A DNA stretch of 48,981 nt, taken from positions 1 through 48,981 of the forward strand of contig JAGOVC010000004.1 of assembly GCA_018060955.1 (NCBI GenBank), read 5' to 3'. The DNA is from Candidatus Woesebacteria bacterium. Its GTDB lineage: Bacteria > Patescibacteriota > Microgenomatia > UBA1400 > UBA12028. The notes under the pieces are model-generated. The model saw only the letters and a program-made list of their open reading frames with translations, did not search any database and was not told the origin of the DNA. Of this stretch, positions 25,679 through 33,156 are shown piece after piece. The position numbers were made by a program, and so were the translations under genes. Position 1 is the first letter of the stretch. The number at the start of each line of letters is the position of its first letter.

Positions 25679-26446
25679 ATGCGTAAGCGCGAACGTTTCA
25701 TTATTTCATCGATTTTGTTGGCCTTTGGATTACTTGCAACACAATTTGTTTCTTCCGACATTCGTCCAATTGCGATTGTCTTATTTTTTATTGCCTCGTA
25801 TTTAACATCGGCATGGGCGCTAAACAAGACCCTTAACGGATTAGAATGGCTGACAGTAGTTCCCTTTCCAGCCTTCTATTCACTATCAGTATCACTATTC
25901 TATTTTTTGTTACCCTCCAACATTATTTCGCGTGTAGCAATCTTACTGCTCTTCGGTGTTGGGATGTACGCACTGTACCTTGCATCGAATATCTTTTCTG
26001 TGGGAAAAGTTAAAACGATTCAGCTTTTACGGGCAGCACATGCAGTAGGATCACTATTTCTTTTTTTGTTATGTCTCTTCTTTTTTAACTTTGTTCTCTC
26101 GCTGGGACTATCACCGCTTCTCAACGGACTTTCTATCGGTGCCTTTGTATTTCTACCTATTCTGTGCGGTATCTGGTCGATTGAACTGTTGCCATCATTG
26201 AGTTCCCGTGTCATCGGTACGACGGTCTTTCTGTCACTGGCATTAGGTGAGATCGGAGTGGCGTTATCATTACTTCCCATTGGACTATGGGCATCCTCAC
26301 TTTATTTGACAGCCATCTTGTACGTAGGCTATGGCATTATTCAGAATTACTTTATCGGTAGGCTCTTTGCCAAGACACTGCAAGAGTACATTTGGCTTGT
26401 CCTCTTTGTTTCAACATCTCTTCTAGTACTCCTAGAATGGAAATAA
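25679..26446 (+). CDS. Polytopic membrane protein, hypothetical
   Basis: A 255-residue protein with about eight hydrophobic helices separated by short loops and few charged residues. No catalytic or transporter motif is visible. It lies 20 bp after yebC on the same strand and may be co-transcribed. Similar eight-helix proteins of unknown function are common in Microgenomates genomes (general impression, not checked). Confidence 0.55.
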   Translation: MRKRERFIISSILLAFGLLATQFVSSDIRPIAIVLFFIASYLTSAWALNKTLNGLEWLTVVPFPAFYSLSVSLFYFLLPSNIISRVAILLLFGVGMYALYLASNIFSVGKVKTIQLLRAAHAVGSLFLFLLCLFFFNFVLSLGLSPLLNGLSIGAFVFLPILCGIWSIELLPSLSSRVIGTTVFLSLALGEIGVALSLLPIGLWASSLYLTAILYVGYGIIQNYFIGRLFAKTLQEYIWLVLFVSTSLLVLLEWK

Positions 26447-26455
26447 CCCCTATTC

Positions 26456-26846
26456 GGGATACCTTCGTGTGTAAGAATGATCCGTCTACCAGATATACCA
26501 GGCACTAAAGAAGGCTTCATTGACCAGGTTACTGAAATTGCTTGGCCGTAACACAATTCGTGGTATGGAAGCAATGGAAAAGTGACAAAATACTCGAGTA
26601 AAACGCCTAAATGTAGGTGAGTAGGAGCTCTAAAAAACCGCTCAATAGACCAGGGGAGAGGGAAGTGATCATACTATATCAGCCTGCCTGGGAAACACTT
26701 CGCACACAACACAGCACGCGATAGTATTATAAGACGTTGTGGTCTATTATTTCACGACATGTGGAAAACTATGACCATACGAAGGTAACTATCAACAGAA
26801 CCGTCCTTCAAACAAAACCCGAACACCGGCTTATAGGAGGTGTGAT
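26456..26846 (+). ncRNA. rnpB: Candidate divergent RNase P RNA
   Basis: The gap 26447-26878 (432 bp) has no gene. Near its 3' end, GTCC (26803-26806) is followed by ACAAAACCCG (26812-26821), six extra bases AACACC, and GGCTTAT (26828-26834). Bacterial RNase P RNA carries the universal core ACAGAACCCGGCTTAT close to its 3' end, so this looks like that core with a 6-nt insertion. Directly after it, GGAGGTGT (26836-26843) can pair with ATACCTTC (26459-26466) at the other end of the gap, giving a P1 helix of 8 bp with two G-U pairs, and the enclosed length (about 390 nt) is right for RNase P RNA. The 5' core GAGGAAAGTCC is not clearly found; GGAAAAGTGAC (about 26575) and GAGGGAAGT (about 26659) are weak candidates. 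The call is therefore tentative. Confidence 0.4.
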
Positions 26847-26878
26847 CTGGAAACAAGTCCATGTTACTCAGAGATATC

Positions 26879-27193
26879 CTATCCTCGTCTGACTCCCATC
26901 AAGAGAGATTTAATATTCTCTATGGAATCAAGTGCGAGCCACTCGTTATAACCCTCCTCACTTTCGAATTCAGTTCGTAGCTGGTCAAAGTTGACATTTC
27001 CTGCCGTAAGAAGCCTAATAATGAGAAATTCTGCATATAAGTGAGTGAACATCTCTAACAACATGGGATTTGAGAACTCTCTCATCCGAGGTGTACCCAG
27101 TTGACGGTGTATCTCATCTAACTGCTTACTGAAAGCATCTTTCATTATAGCGTTATTGCTGTCTAAGACCAGCTGTTCCTTGATTTGCTGCAT
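26879..27193 (-). CDS. Hypothetical protein
   Basis: A 104-residue helical protein with no recognised family (MQQIKEQLVLDSNNAIMKDA; NPMLLEMFTHLYAEFLIIRL). The frame extends to a TTG at 27250 (123 residues), but TACAAT lies 8 nt before the ATG at 27193 on the minus strand, which suggests a leaderless start there. The longer start is not excluded because its extra residues also look protein-like. It ends 33 bp after the candidate RNase P RNA, in opposite orientation. Confidence 0.5.
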   Translation of the reverse strand: MQQIKEQLVLDSNNAIMKDAFSKQLDEIHRQLGTPRMREFSNPMLLEMFTHLYAEFLIIRLLTAGNVNFDQLRTEFESEEGYNEWLALDSIENIKSLLMGVRRG

Positions 27194-27250
27194 ATGTTTG
27201 TATTGTAAGATCCCCAGGTGGGTAGTCAATACATGTGCCAAGTCGTACAA

Positions 27251-27592
27251 TATACCTTTTACGACATAGTGTCTGGTTTGTCACTTAAACAGCCATTACT
27301 GTTTCGTGTGATCATTGTACATTTATTGTTGGATTTAGTGCACTCATTCGTCCCCGTTGTCATTTACCTGTACGAATACTAGAAACCATTAATCGCGTCA
27401 TGGTGACCCTATTTATCCAAATACCCACAAAGTTGCTAATGTAAGAAAACCCGAAGGATCGGACTCCAATGACACCACTAAAGTGGTTAAAAAGCAAAAG
27501 CAAAGGAAGATAGATGACTACATATGAACCCTATCCCTAAATCACCCGATTTTGGGCATTTAAACGCCTTTTAGCCTGGTAGAAGCCGAGTT
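27251..27592. other. 342-bp gap without a recognised gene
   Basis: No ORF with convincing coding character and no tRNA-like fold is seen. A short hairpin, ACCACT-AA-AGTGGT (about 27474-27487), is followed by AAAAAG rather than a T tract. A weak GGC..GCC hairpin near 27559 is followed by TTTT. Confidence 0.5.
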
Positions 27593-28465
27593 TTAATCTC
27601 TAGAATGTGGGTGTAATGACGGATTAAGCCGGATAGCTGAATCAATGGCACGTTGGTAGATACGTGCGGAATGTATGACCATCAGATTTTCAGTGAACTG
27701 TTGGAAATTTCCATTTTTTGTTGAAACATAGTAACCAAGTTTTAGATATTTGGCTACGGTAAAGATCTGCCAGAATCTTCGATAGAGTTCCCGCATATCC
27801 GACGTACCGCCGTAGACATTTGACTCAATGAAGTTTTGCAATCGAGCAAAAGCTCTAGCATCTGCCGAAAACTGTTGAGCTTGTGGTGTAGCTCCCCGTA
27901 AGAATGCCTGTACCTGATGTGGTTCGAGTTGAGGACAATACTGATTGTCATAAAAACGAAATATATCTTTACGGACTGTCTCCGACGTTCTTATCAAAGC
28001 GTAATGATAATTGGGAGTGCTTAAGGCATTTAACGGAACAACTCGATGAGGATTATTTTGTAGCCCATTTGTTGCGACCATTAAGTCCGGTACTGAAGCG
28101 CAGGTATCATGTGGATGGGTGTGAACAGTAGCAATGGGAGTCTGAGAATTTGGCAGGTTTGTGGGGTATTCCAAGTCAACCTCGTCATGACCGGAAACTA
28201 ATCCTTGCGGGTACAGTAACCGTCTGAGATTTAAATCCAAGAGGATGAAACCACCAACTTCATTCACATCATCTGGTTTGGGGCACTCTTGGCATCTGGT
28301 GAGGAACTGCTCAAGTCCTTGTGAGGAAAACTGACGGGGAAGTCGATCATAGGATAGTAATGGAGACGAACCATCCATGTGTGCCACGAATGCTTCAATA
28401 CTGCCCTCTCTAATTGGATGGTTCTCATATGCACTGGAATTTAAGATGATCTCACCCTTCGACAT
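27593..28465 (-). CDS. JAMM/JAB-like metalloprotease domain protein
   Basis: A 290-residue protein. In the N-terminal half, NEVGGFILLD (Glu69) is followed by IATVHTHPHDTCASVPD with His115, His117, Ser124 and Asp127, the JAMM pattern E...HxHP..SxxD. The spacing between HTHP and Ser is five residues, one shorter than in well-known JAMM proteins. JAMM enzymes are zinc isopeptidases or amidases. Residues about 170-290 are helical and unrelated to any domain I recognise. It is flanked by orphan genes in an accessory stretch near a Xer recombinase. No ubiquitin-like or E1-like gene is seen adjacent, so the substrate is unknown. Confidence 0.55.
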   Translation of the reverse strand: MSKGEIILNSSAYENHPIREGSIEAFVAHMDGSSPLLSYDRLPRQFSSQGLEQFLTRCQECPKPDDVNEVGGFILLDLNLRRLLYPQGLVSGHDEVDLEYPTNLPNSQTPIATVHTHPHDTCASVPDLMVATNGLQNNPHRVVPLNALSTPNYHYALIRTSETVRKDIFRFYDNQYCPQLEPHQVQAFLRGATPQAQQFSADARAFARLQNFIESNVYGGTSDMRELYRRFWQIFTVAKYLKLGYYVSTKNGNFQQFTENLMVIHSARIYQRAIDSAIRLNPSLHPHSRD

Positions 28466-28578
28466 AGCTGCTCGTTTAAGTATTTCTACTTAATATTATA
28501 CAATAAGCATTACTTACACGATAATCCCCTACCCTATCTGTTTCATACATTTATGTCTTCAAAAGTAACTGATGTTTT

Positions 28579-28607
28579 TTGACATAAAACAGACAGAGAC
28601 TTACAAT
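28579..28607 (+). promoter_or_regulatory. Consensus sigma-70-type promoter, leaderless
   Basis: TTGACA (28579-28584), a 17-nt spacer and TACAAT (28602-28607), ending 9 nt before the ATG at 28617. This is the best full promoter in the window and supports the leaderless reading of the similar -10 boxes. Confidence 0.7.
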
Positions 28608-28616
28608 GACACTCAT

Positions 28617-29183
28617 ATGACAGATAAATTACACCCCGTAACAGAAGAAACAGCTGCTCAAAAAACTGTTGCAGAGATTGATGCACGTTTGAACTATTTT
28701 AAAGAGCTTTTTAAATCAACACTCCCAGAACGTTCCATTAAAACTGCTTGGTTAAAAAAGTATACGAATAGAAAACCTGTCCCAGAATCTGAGCTTCGAG
28801 TTGGTGACTATTACTTAATTCGAACAAGAGATTCGTCATTACAAGAAGTTGTCATTCCGTTTAAACTCGGAACCGCGACGAATGAGGATGCGTATGGCAC
28901 CCTAGTCACACGACTTCGTGCGGACACACATGACGAAATACTTGGGGCAATTGGCGGTAATCAGATTGAAAATATTTCTATTACTTCTGATGGCTTACGA
29001 ACGTTCAAAAGTGCAGATATAACTCAGGAGCAGGATGAAACTAAGCCTGATCTAGGTCCGTTCATCGCTGGTCATCCTGCTTCAGAAAAAGCGGACTATA
29101 CGATTTTCCCACTTACTCGGGCAGAAGCTGAAGAGATCAGACGTCAAATTGTTTCAAGCCTTCCTCCTGAAAAACGTGATTAA
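28617..29183 (+). CDS. Hypothetical protein
   Basis: A 188-residue soluble protein of unknown family. Residues about 15-55 are helical and basic, about 60-120 look strand-rich (ELRVGDYYLIRTRDSS; VVIPFKLGTATN), and the C terminus is acidic then helical (RAEAEEIRRQIVSSLPPEKRD). The frame opens upstream at 28572, but that stretch holds the promoter, so the ATG at 28617 is chosen. Confidence 0.6.
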   Translation: MTDKLHPVTEETAAQKTVAEIDARLNYFKELFKSTLPERSIKTAWLKKYTNRKPVPESELRVGDYYLIRTRDSSLQEVVIPFKLGTATNEDAYGTLVTRLRADTHDEILGAIGGNQIENISITSDGLRTFKSADITQEQDETKPDLGPFIAGHPASEKADYTIFPLTRAEAEEIRRQIVSSLPPEKRD

Positions 29184-29520: not shown

Positions 29521-30477
29521 ATGAACGCGAATACTATTCTCACTCCCCTGCACGGTCAAATCATCCAGTTTTTAGATCATATTGAAGTAGAGCGAAATTT
29601 AAGTCGACTCACAATTCGTAACTATCGCCATTACCTATCCCGCTTTGCAGATTGGTTTGCGCAAGAAGGCTTTACAGACATCACGCAGTTAAACTTGGAT
29701 ATTGTCTTAAAGTACCGTGTCTATCTATCCCACTTTTCGGATATCTACGGCAGAGAACTGACAAAGAAGACCCAAGGGTATCATGTCATTGCCCTACGCT
29801 CCTTTTTAAAGTACTTAGTGAAAAACGATATACCAGTCATCGCACCGGAGAAAATTGACCTTCCCAAAAGTGAAGGTTTGCACATGCATTTCCTAGACGA
29901 GACCCAGATCGAACGCCTCTTATCCCAGCCATTAAGCTCCACAAAACAAGGCCTTCGAGATCGAGCAATCCTTGAAGTACTCTTTAGCACGGGGCTTCGT
30001 GTCAGTGAGCTTGCCTCTCTGGATCGAGAGCAAGTCGATACACAGCGTCGTGAATTTGGGGTGATTGGCAAGGGAAGACGGGCTCGCGTCGTCTTTCTAT
30101 CCGAGCGTGCTGCTTCCTATGTCGAGTCCTATGTCGTCTCCAGATCAGATCACTACTCTCCCCTGTTCATCCGCATGAACCGTGATGATGCTCCCGATAC
30201 CGAGGGCGAAGCTATGCGATTGACTGTGCGAACAATTCAACGCATTGTGGAAAAGTATGCAAAGGCTGCTAAGCTCCCGATCAAAATCACTCCACACGGG
30301 ATCCGTCACTCCTTTGCCACGGACTTGCTACATAATGGCGCTGGCCTTCGTGATGTACAGGAATTGCTGGGACACAAGAATATCGCAACCACCCAGATCT
30401 ATACCCACGTGACTAGAGCTGACTTAAAAAAGGTGCATGAGAAATTTCACAAGAAAGAAGAGGTATCTGATCAGTAA
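29521..30477 (+). CDS. xer: Tyrosine recombinase, XerC/XerD type
   Basis: A 318-residue site-specific recombinase. The N-terminal SAM-like domain (about 1-115) contains LSRLTIRNYRHYL. The catalytic domain has Arg160 (STGLRVSEL), Lys184, His259 and Arg262 (HGIRHSFAT), His285 (LLGHKNIATT) and the nucleophile Tyr294 (IYTHV). All six catalytic residues are present. It probably resolves chromosome dimers at a dif-like site, and a lone Xer of this type is common in reduced genomes. GGAGAG lies 8 nt before the ATG. It is convergent with the minus-strand array, with 1 bp between the stops. Confidence 0.93.
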   Translation: MNANTILTPLHGQIIQFLDHIEVERNLSRLTIRNYRHYLSRFADWFAQEGFTDITQLNLDIVLKYRVYLSHFSDIYGRELTKKTQGYHVIALRSFLKYLVKNDIPVIAPEKIDLPKSEGLHMHFLDETQIERLLSQPLSSTKQGLRDRAILEVLFSTGLRVSELASLDREQVDTQRREFGVIGKGRRARVVFLSERAASYVESYVVSRSDHYSPLFIRMNRDDAPDTEGEAMRLTVRTIQRIVEKYAKAAKLPIKITPHGIRHSFATDLLHNGAGLRDVQELLGHKNIATTQIYTHVTRADLKKVHEKFHKKEEVSDQ

Positions 30478-31814: not shown

Positions 31815-32486
31815 CTAATCGGAAAACCGGCCTAACAAGCCTCTCAAACGGGAACGACGTTTAGATAATGAGATTTCTTTTTTGAAACGAGGGTCGCCTT
31901 CCTTGTCAGTCCCAGCGGCTAAGTATCCGGACTTTTCTGCCTGTCGACTTGTCCACATCGGAGGGTTACTCCGATCCCGTAGGATAATTTGCAACGTGTC
32001 GATGTTTTTACTTGGCCCGATTTTTTCCCAGATAGAGATCACCAGTTTTTCACTTTGATCTAATAATGCTGATCCTACGCCAACAGACTTTAGCGACTCA
32101 TAAATGATTTTAATTTCTGACCAGTATTCTACAGTTCGTAGATCTAACTTTCGTCGGATTGAATCGATACTTACTTCCCCAGTGGGATCAGTGTAGACAG
32201 AGCGGTTTGCCTCAGGGGTGAGATCTTTTGCATCGACGATATCAACGTCAATGCTAAAATTCCGTTTTTGCAAGTTTAGAGGTTTAAGCCTAATTTTGAA
32301 TCGCTGTAGCTTTCCATCCGTTCTTATGAGCTCAAAAGGTTCTGAATAGAGTTGAACTGTCGGTTCGTTTTCGGAAGAAGTGTCAAGCATCGCAAGAACT
32401 TGTTTTTCGAAGGCTGCAAAAGCTTTCTCCAATTTTTCTCGATTGGATCTTCGAACTTCTTCCAAATTCCTGGTCTCTCTGTCCAT
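31815..32486 (-). CDS. Hypothetical protein with a GNAT-like region, paralog 1
   Basis: A 223-residue protein related to its neighbour 32494-33156. It starts with a charged helix (MDRETRNLEEVRRSNREKLE), then a strand-rich half, and in the second half has LKSVGVGSALLDQSEKL, which resembles the acetyl-CoA-binding motif A (R/QxxGxG) of GNAT acetyltransferases, followed by a strand and WTSRQAEKSGYLAAG. The C terminus is very basic (SKRRSRLRGLLGRFS). A GNAT-like fold is inference. The frame is open to 32525, but the paralog aligns from the ATG at 32486, and AAGG precedes it. Confidence 0.55.
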   Translation of the reverse strand: MDRETRNLEEVRRSNREKLEKAFAAFEKQVLAMLDTSSENEPTVQLYSEPFELIRTDGKLQRFKIRLKPLNLQKRNFSIDVDIVDAKDLTPEANRSVYTDPTGEVSIDSIRRKLDLRTVEYWSEIKIIYESLKSVGVGSALLDQSEKLVISIWEKIGPSKNIDTLQIILRDRSNPPMWTSRQAEKSGYLAAGTDKEGDPRFKKEISLSKRRSRLRGLLGRFSD

Positions 32487-32493
32487 AGTAACC

Positions 32494-33156
32494 TTAATCT
32501 TTCTTTCTACGGAAAATGCCTCCAAATAAACTTCCCCTTCTTCTCTCTTTCAACGGAACATATTTTTCAAAGTGAGGTAAGTCATGTAGGTTTTCGTTAG
32601 CATCCTCAATTCTGTTATATCCATGCGTCAAAGCTTGTTTACTAGTCCATCCTTGAGGTTCGCTATGATCATCAGTTACAAGTCGAAGGTAATCAAAGTT
32701 CGAAGAATCTGACAGCTCTTTCCAGATTCGAAGAAGGAGAGATTCCCTTTCTTCAAAAATTACTGAACCGATACCAACGCCTCCGAGAGATTCTTGGTGG
32801 ATATGAAGTGATGAGTCATATTGAACACCCTGTTCTTTTGTTCCCTCAATCTGATGTGGACCATTCACAATGAATTCAGCCGCAACAATAGATTCACCAT
32901 TAGAGTTCAGCAGGTCTAACAAAATATCCGGAGCAACTGTTGTCAACTTCATTCTATCCAGCTTAAGTCTATATTCATCCATGTTTCCAAATCTATCTGT
33001 GAGGTGCAAAGGCTCAGAAACTATAGCATTAGTCCTTGCCATTGATTCTCTCGAATGGAGAGCTTTCACTACTTTGTCTTGAAGCTCATTAAATGCCCGA
33101 CGCAGAACCACTTGATTCTGTCTCTGTATTTCAAGACGCTTTTCTGTTTCATCCAT
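32494..33156 (-). CDS. Hypothetical protein with a GNAT-like region, paralog 2
   Basis: A 220-residue paralog of 31815-32486. Shared points are the charged N-terminal helix (MDETEKRLEIQRQNQVVLRR), SEPLHLTDRFGNMDEYRLKL, GGVGIGSVIFEERESLLLRIW (the GNAT-like glycine motif) and WTSKQALTHGY. Its basic C-terminal tail is similar (RRRGSLFGGIFRRKK). It ends 7 bp before paralog 1, and lies 6 bp after the SIMPL gene, so the three are co-transcribed. A shared role is likely but unknown. Confidence 0.55.
   Translation of the reverse strand: MDETEKRLEIQRQNQVVLRRAFNELQDKVVKALHSRESMARTNAIVSEPLHLTDRFGNMDEYRLKLDRMKLTTVAPDILLDLLNSNGESIVAAEFIVNGPHQIEGTKEQGVQYDSSLHIHQESLGGVGIGSVIFEERESLLLRIWKELSDSSNFDYLRLVTDDHSEPQGWTSKQALTHGYNRIEDANENLHDLPHFEKYVPLKERRRGSLFGGIFRRKKD

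Follow-up and report, generated by a model that had tools for sequence, protein, structure and literature searches.

JAMM proteins carry the published motif E-Xn-H-S/T-H-X7-S-X2-D, in which two histidines and the aspartate bind zinc and the glutamate serves as the acid-base catalyst; in AfJAMM, E22 and H67 are 45 apart in the published numbering (PMC300881). Bacterial JAB/JAMM genes often adjoin genes for E1-like and ubiquitin-like proteins (PMC1779556), as described for BilC (PMC11354881). RadC is a widely distributed prokaryotic JAMM whose function is disputed (PMC5512222).

Here we describe a 290-aa gene in a 48,981-nucleotide stretch of DNA (the window) from a Candidatus Woesebacteria genome. 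Like the stand-alone and E1-fused Prok-JAB proteins (PF14464; AfJAMM, BilC, BubCD), its product has the order E-Xn-H-S/T-H-P...D with a near-equal Glu-His spacing; unlike them, it has no PF14464 match, a non-canonical loop, an extra helical half and a genome without E1. With RadC it shares the order Glu, HxHP, Asp, but RadC reads HNHPSG..PSxxD, whereas the 290-aa protein reads HTHP, has a short loop and adds the C-terminal helical half. RadC also has a HhH part at its N-terminus, and no domain match of this or any other kind was obtained for the 290-aa protein. On balance, we read the gene as probably encoding a rare, divergent, stand-alone metal-dependent hydrolase of the JAMM fold in Microgenomates, acting on a peptide or isopeptide substrate other than a ubiquitin-like conjugate.

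Three observations show that the 290-aa frame is a genuine coding sequence: 290 codons in a row without a stop have a chance of about 3e-8 at the local GC content, the frame ranks first of six for codon usage, and a homologue exists at E 3.6e-12. The codon usage is only weakly ahead (-0.024, compared to -0.007 to 0.277 for eight other listed genes), which suits fast evolution or recent acquisition. No model in Pfam, NCBIfam, PADLOC or PHROGs matches the protein, and none of the curated family models matches the homologue either. Sequence and profile searches of the PDB gave no JAMM structure for the protein or the pair; the rows returned, among them an inositol polyphosphate multikinase (E 0.2) and a PglZ protein (E 0.098), were discarded as noise. 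The C-terminal half, which the initial annotation had called unrecognised, still has no match in the family libraries or among PDB sequences. Coordinates of all features are given in Table 1.

Table 1. Features of the 290-aa gene and its surroundings, in window coordinates
Feature	Position	Strand	Basis or remark
255-aa membrane protein, left border of the slot	25679..26446	+	kept in 4/4 genomes of the family
123-aa orphan ORF, neighbour	26879..27250	-	no family match above noise
290-aa orphan protein with JAMM-like motif (P0001)	27593..28465	-	ORF with ATG start; homologue
C-terminal half, residues 175-290	27596..27943	-	mostly helical in low-confidence model; no family match
KLGYYVSTKNG, conserved stretch (homologue: KLGFYWSNKDG)	27710..27742	-	pairwise alignment
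JAMM-like core, about residues 66-166	27968..28270	-	aligns with the Levyibacteriota homologue and, by profile, with RadC/JAMM around HTHP..D
Asp127 codon, predicted metal ligand	28085..28087	-	conserved in homologue (D184)
Ser124 codon, JAMM-type Ser	28094..28096	-	aligned to Ala in homologue
His115-Thr116-His117 codons, predicted metal ligands	28115..28123	-	HSH in homologue
Glu69 codon, predicted general base	28259..28261	-	E123 in homologue, conserved
203-aa orphan gene, divergently oriented neighbour	28572..29183	+	no family match above noise
XerC/D-like tyrosine recombinase, right border of the slot	29521..30477	+	kept in 4/4 genomes of the family

The JAMM-like core and its single homologue

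The initial annotation had pointed to Glu69, HTHP, Ser124 and Asp127 as a JAMM-like set with a spacing one residue short. All of these residues are present at the positions given, and the remark on spacing is correct, since six residues separate His117 from Ser124 (X6-Ser-X2) compared to seven in the published motif. In both the 290-aa protein (HTHP, with Pro118 after His117) and its homologue (HSHP), proline follows the second histidine.

The homologue was found by searching 373 genomes of the class with the 290-aa protein. This single true hit is a 338-aa protein (24% identity, E 3.6e-12) from a Candidatus Levyibacteriota MAG (contig JACPGQ010000045.1; L008:3748-4764, genome G328), assigned by NCBI to the Microgenomates group of Patescibacteria. 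The pair alignment keeps Glu69, Gly71, Val114, His115, His117, Pro118, Asp127 and Leu128, and 46 residues separate the glutamate from the first histidine in both proteins. At the overall identity of 23% obtained in a second alignment, chance alone would give a match at all of four specified residues in about 0.3% of cases, by simple arithmetic. The C-terminal half aligns too, with the conserved stretch KLG[YF]YxSxKxG.

The homologue differs in about 53 additional N-terminal residues before the core and in a metal-site loop that is three residues longer, so that the distance from the second histidine to the aspartate is 13 residues compared to 10 in the 290-aa protein. Its loop reads X7-Ser and then X4 to the aspartate, with alanine three residues before the aspartate in place of the serine. 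Neither protein has the canonical X7-Ser-X2 between HxH and Asp. Across the pair, the putative metal ligands and catalytic glutamate are thus conserved, while the oxyanion serine is uncertain because the homologue has alanine there and a longer loop. A loose E..HxHP..D pattern, written post hoc with both proteins already known, was present in 48 out of 200,000 shuffled versions of the 290-aa protein; of the window's 131 open frames with 80 codons or more, only the 290-aa frame itself has it.

The family is rare and patchy among the genomes searched, as overlapping draws (labels G000 to G822) added no clear member beyond the source genome (G000) and G328. Among 53 close relatives searched with the 290-aa protein, only the source genome itself carries the gene. 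The two-sequence profile found no further member in 379 genomes of the phylum, 88 of the order, 373 of the class and 55 of another class, nor did the homologue as query in 82 genomes of its own order. Scans of genome contigs matched only the Levyibacteriota record. Viral contigs, phages and plasmids gave no match for the family, and the viral contigs gave none for the 203-aa neighbour. Our literature searches on JAMM proteins of the Candidate Phyla Radiation, Microgenomates or Patescibacteria gave no description of the family.

Four weaker hits were dropped. Two came from the class search: L003 (E 7.1e-4), which has two internal stops, and L004 (E 0.0038), a 487-aa protein without HxHP. The other two came from the phylum profile search: L007 (E 0.0013), read as a prolyl-tRNA synthetase, and L006 (E 4e-4), a 97-aa frame containing a stop.

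Profile comparison with RadC and JAMM proteins

Using hhalign, we found that the two-sequence profile aligns to RadC and to mixed RadC/JAMM profiles around HxHP..D. It scores 27.4 against the RadC+JAMM profile and 23.5 against RadC alone. None of 100 column-shuffled controls reaches either score (maxima 21.9 and 21.1, respectively), and the reversed profile gives 14.5 and 12.1. The hhalign probability is just 6-21% for these matches, which are driven by HxHP..D and leave Glu69 outside the aligned segment. Taken singly, the homologue scores 26.3 and exceeds all of its 60 shuffles; the 290-aa protein is borderline, with two of 60 shuffles reaching its score. As a yardstick we took L022, a JAMM-E1 fusion with a match to the solved Citrobacter BubCD (E 1.5e-18). 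Its score against that RadC profile is 23.3, and accordingly the 290-aa family is no further from RadC than a genuine JAMM-E1 protein.

The sensitivity of this test is low, since among three JAMM-like proteins used as positive controls two (L033 and L040) fail to exceed their own shuffles. In the mixed profile, a rough MAFFT alignment, L040 visibly sits in the wrong place, and the comparison with RadC alone is therefore the cleaner one. Overall, the profile comparison lends moderate support to a place among the JAMM proteins. The Prok-JAB model (PF14464) matches neither the 290-aa protein (hmmscan, E up to 1) nor its core (E up to 10), nor anything else in the source genome (E up to 1).

With RadC as the nearest profile, the main rival reading is a JAMM-fold protein of a RadC-like or Tox-JAB-like kind whose target is nucleic acid or nucleotides instead of peptide bonds, its helical C-terminal half binding nucleic acid. 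The RadC and toxin JAB clades are argued in PMC5512222 and PMC3482391 to be nuclease-like, on the grounds that they are missing the groove for the ubiquitin tail or the residues that line it, and that the toxin JABs occur mostly in hosts without ubiquitin-like systems; the source genome also has no E1. Nonetheless, the 290-aa protein has no HhH or other nucleic-acid domain, HTHP and HSHP are the classic form as opposed to the HNHP of RadC, and no toxin-delivery or immunity gene is recognised among the neighbours. We consider an action on nucleic acid quite unlikely.

The protein could also be no JAMM enzyme at all, being either an unrelated fold with a coincidental E..HTHP..SxxD or a JAMM-derived protein without catalysis. 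Such a reading would fit the differing serine and loop length of the two members, as well as AlphaFold models of very low confidence from the two-sequence alignments (pLDDT 32.4 for 273 aa and 37.9 for the 135-aa core), which are too poor to bear on the zinc-site geometry. For this reading, and against the JAMM-like assignment of the initial annotation, counts the fact that no curated family matches. That assignment has in turn gained a homologue in which Glu, HxHP and Asp persist, with an equal Glu-His spacing, despite 23-24% identity, and profile scores above all 100 shuffles. A coincidental or inactive motif seems rather improbable to us on this evidence.

A variable slot beside a resident xer gene

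The 290-aa gene occupies a variable slot that adjoins a resident Xer gene and is not an element carried by this Xer. A yebC-like gene, the 255-aa membrane protein gene and xer occur in the same order in the family's three other genomes. What lies between the last two genes differs: the 123-aa, 290-aa and 203-aa orphans in the source genome, a 310-aa gene read as a sugar-isomerase-like TIM barrel in G002, and no clear gene in G001 and G003 (longest frames wholly inside the slot below 100 aa). These differences in content support the accessory character proposed in the initial annotation. The nearby Xer recombinase, which that annotation also mentioned, is not a sign of mobility: since the same xer gene occupies the same place in all four family genomes, it is no evidence of a mobile element. 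The GC content of the locus (39-44%) does not stand out, and composition, repeats, a promoter/terminator scan and Rfam revealed no element there. Conserved neighbours had been proposed as a check; the 290-aa gene and its homologue have none in common, the homologue being flanked by genes read as dnaE-like and atpB-like.

Two further observations concern the surroundings. In the regions 26450-26878 and 27251-27592, on either side of the 123-aa ORF, coding signal is slight or absent in all frames, and these may be the sites of decayed genes. At 31815-33156, neighbouring orphan genes of 236 and 220 aa resemble tandem paralogues and are followed by a 439-aa orphan.

No ThiF/E1 protein scores over the Pfam cut-off in the source genome, which is 95.6% complete (best E 0.159). 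As a control, all 14 control genomes gave a ThiF match, over the cut-off in 11 of them. PADLOC gave no defence match for the 290-aa protein or its two neighbours. The earlier observation that no ubiquitin-like or defence partner is seen therefore extends from the neighbours tested to a genome without ThiF/E1 over the cut-off. A deubiquitinase-type role is unlikely, because the source genome has no credible E1/ThiF. The linkage of bacterial JAB genes to ubiquitin-like and E1 genes, together with one true ThiF gene (E 6.6e-46) in the homologue's genome, might favour a BilC-like protease that deconjugates or processes a ubiquitin-like modifier and has its partners elsewhere in the genome, but we regard this as very unlikely given the lack of ThiF over the cut-off in the source genome, the lack of common neighbours and the position of the homologue's ThiF on a separate contig (L042, G328:C48), where it adjoins a PqqD-like/M50-like membrane protein in what, read by eye, is perhaps a RiPP-like peptide-modification cluster.

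Other JAMM loci are found in the same order. For example, one genome has an apparent Bub-type operon (L046:3012-5463; G039:C4:107500-117500) encoding a 240-aa protein read as Ubl/E2-like, a 465-aa JAMM-E1 fusion and a 120-aa protein; the JAMM part of the fusion matches the solved Citrobacter BubCD (E 1.5e-18), and the operon adjoins an HTH regulator and a metallopeptidase-like gene. In another genome, a lone 250-aa JAMM-like protein (YHVHT..LSAAD; L047:3254-4006, G049:C5:37000-44500) is encoded between radC and a tgt-like gene. By BLASTP, neither this protein nor the lone JAMM-like protein L040 has similarity to the 290-aa protein.

Proposed function and meaning for the family

The stand-alone JAMM-fold hydrolase that we favour would work as AfJAMM does, with His115, His117 and Asp127 as zinc ligands and Glu69 as the activator of the attacking water. 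The KLG[YF]YxSxKxG stretch lies in the helical C-terminal half, which may position the substrate. The enzyme would act inside the cell, a cytoplasmic location being predicted from the N-termini, on a peptide or isopeptide bond. Its substrate is expected not to be a ubiquitin-like conjugate, because the genome shows no E1. The fold, zinc binding, catalysis and substrate class of the 290-aa protein are predictions.

A bolder proposal is that the pair founds the first known JAMM-fold family of Patescibacteria with a dedicated C-terminal helical domain, working without any ubiquitin-like system on substrates of a new class, and that it spreads through exchange at a variable chromosomal slot. We put this forward tentatively, as possible though on the doubtful side. 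The significance of the family is limited because just two sequences are known. Little is understood of JAMM enzymes that operate without ubiquitin-like proteins, and a divergent JAMM-like family of small size, in a bacterium with about 1 Mb of DNA and no E1, would offer a simple case of what the JAMM fold does when it stands alone.
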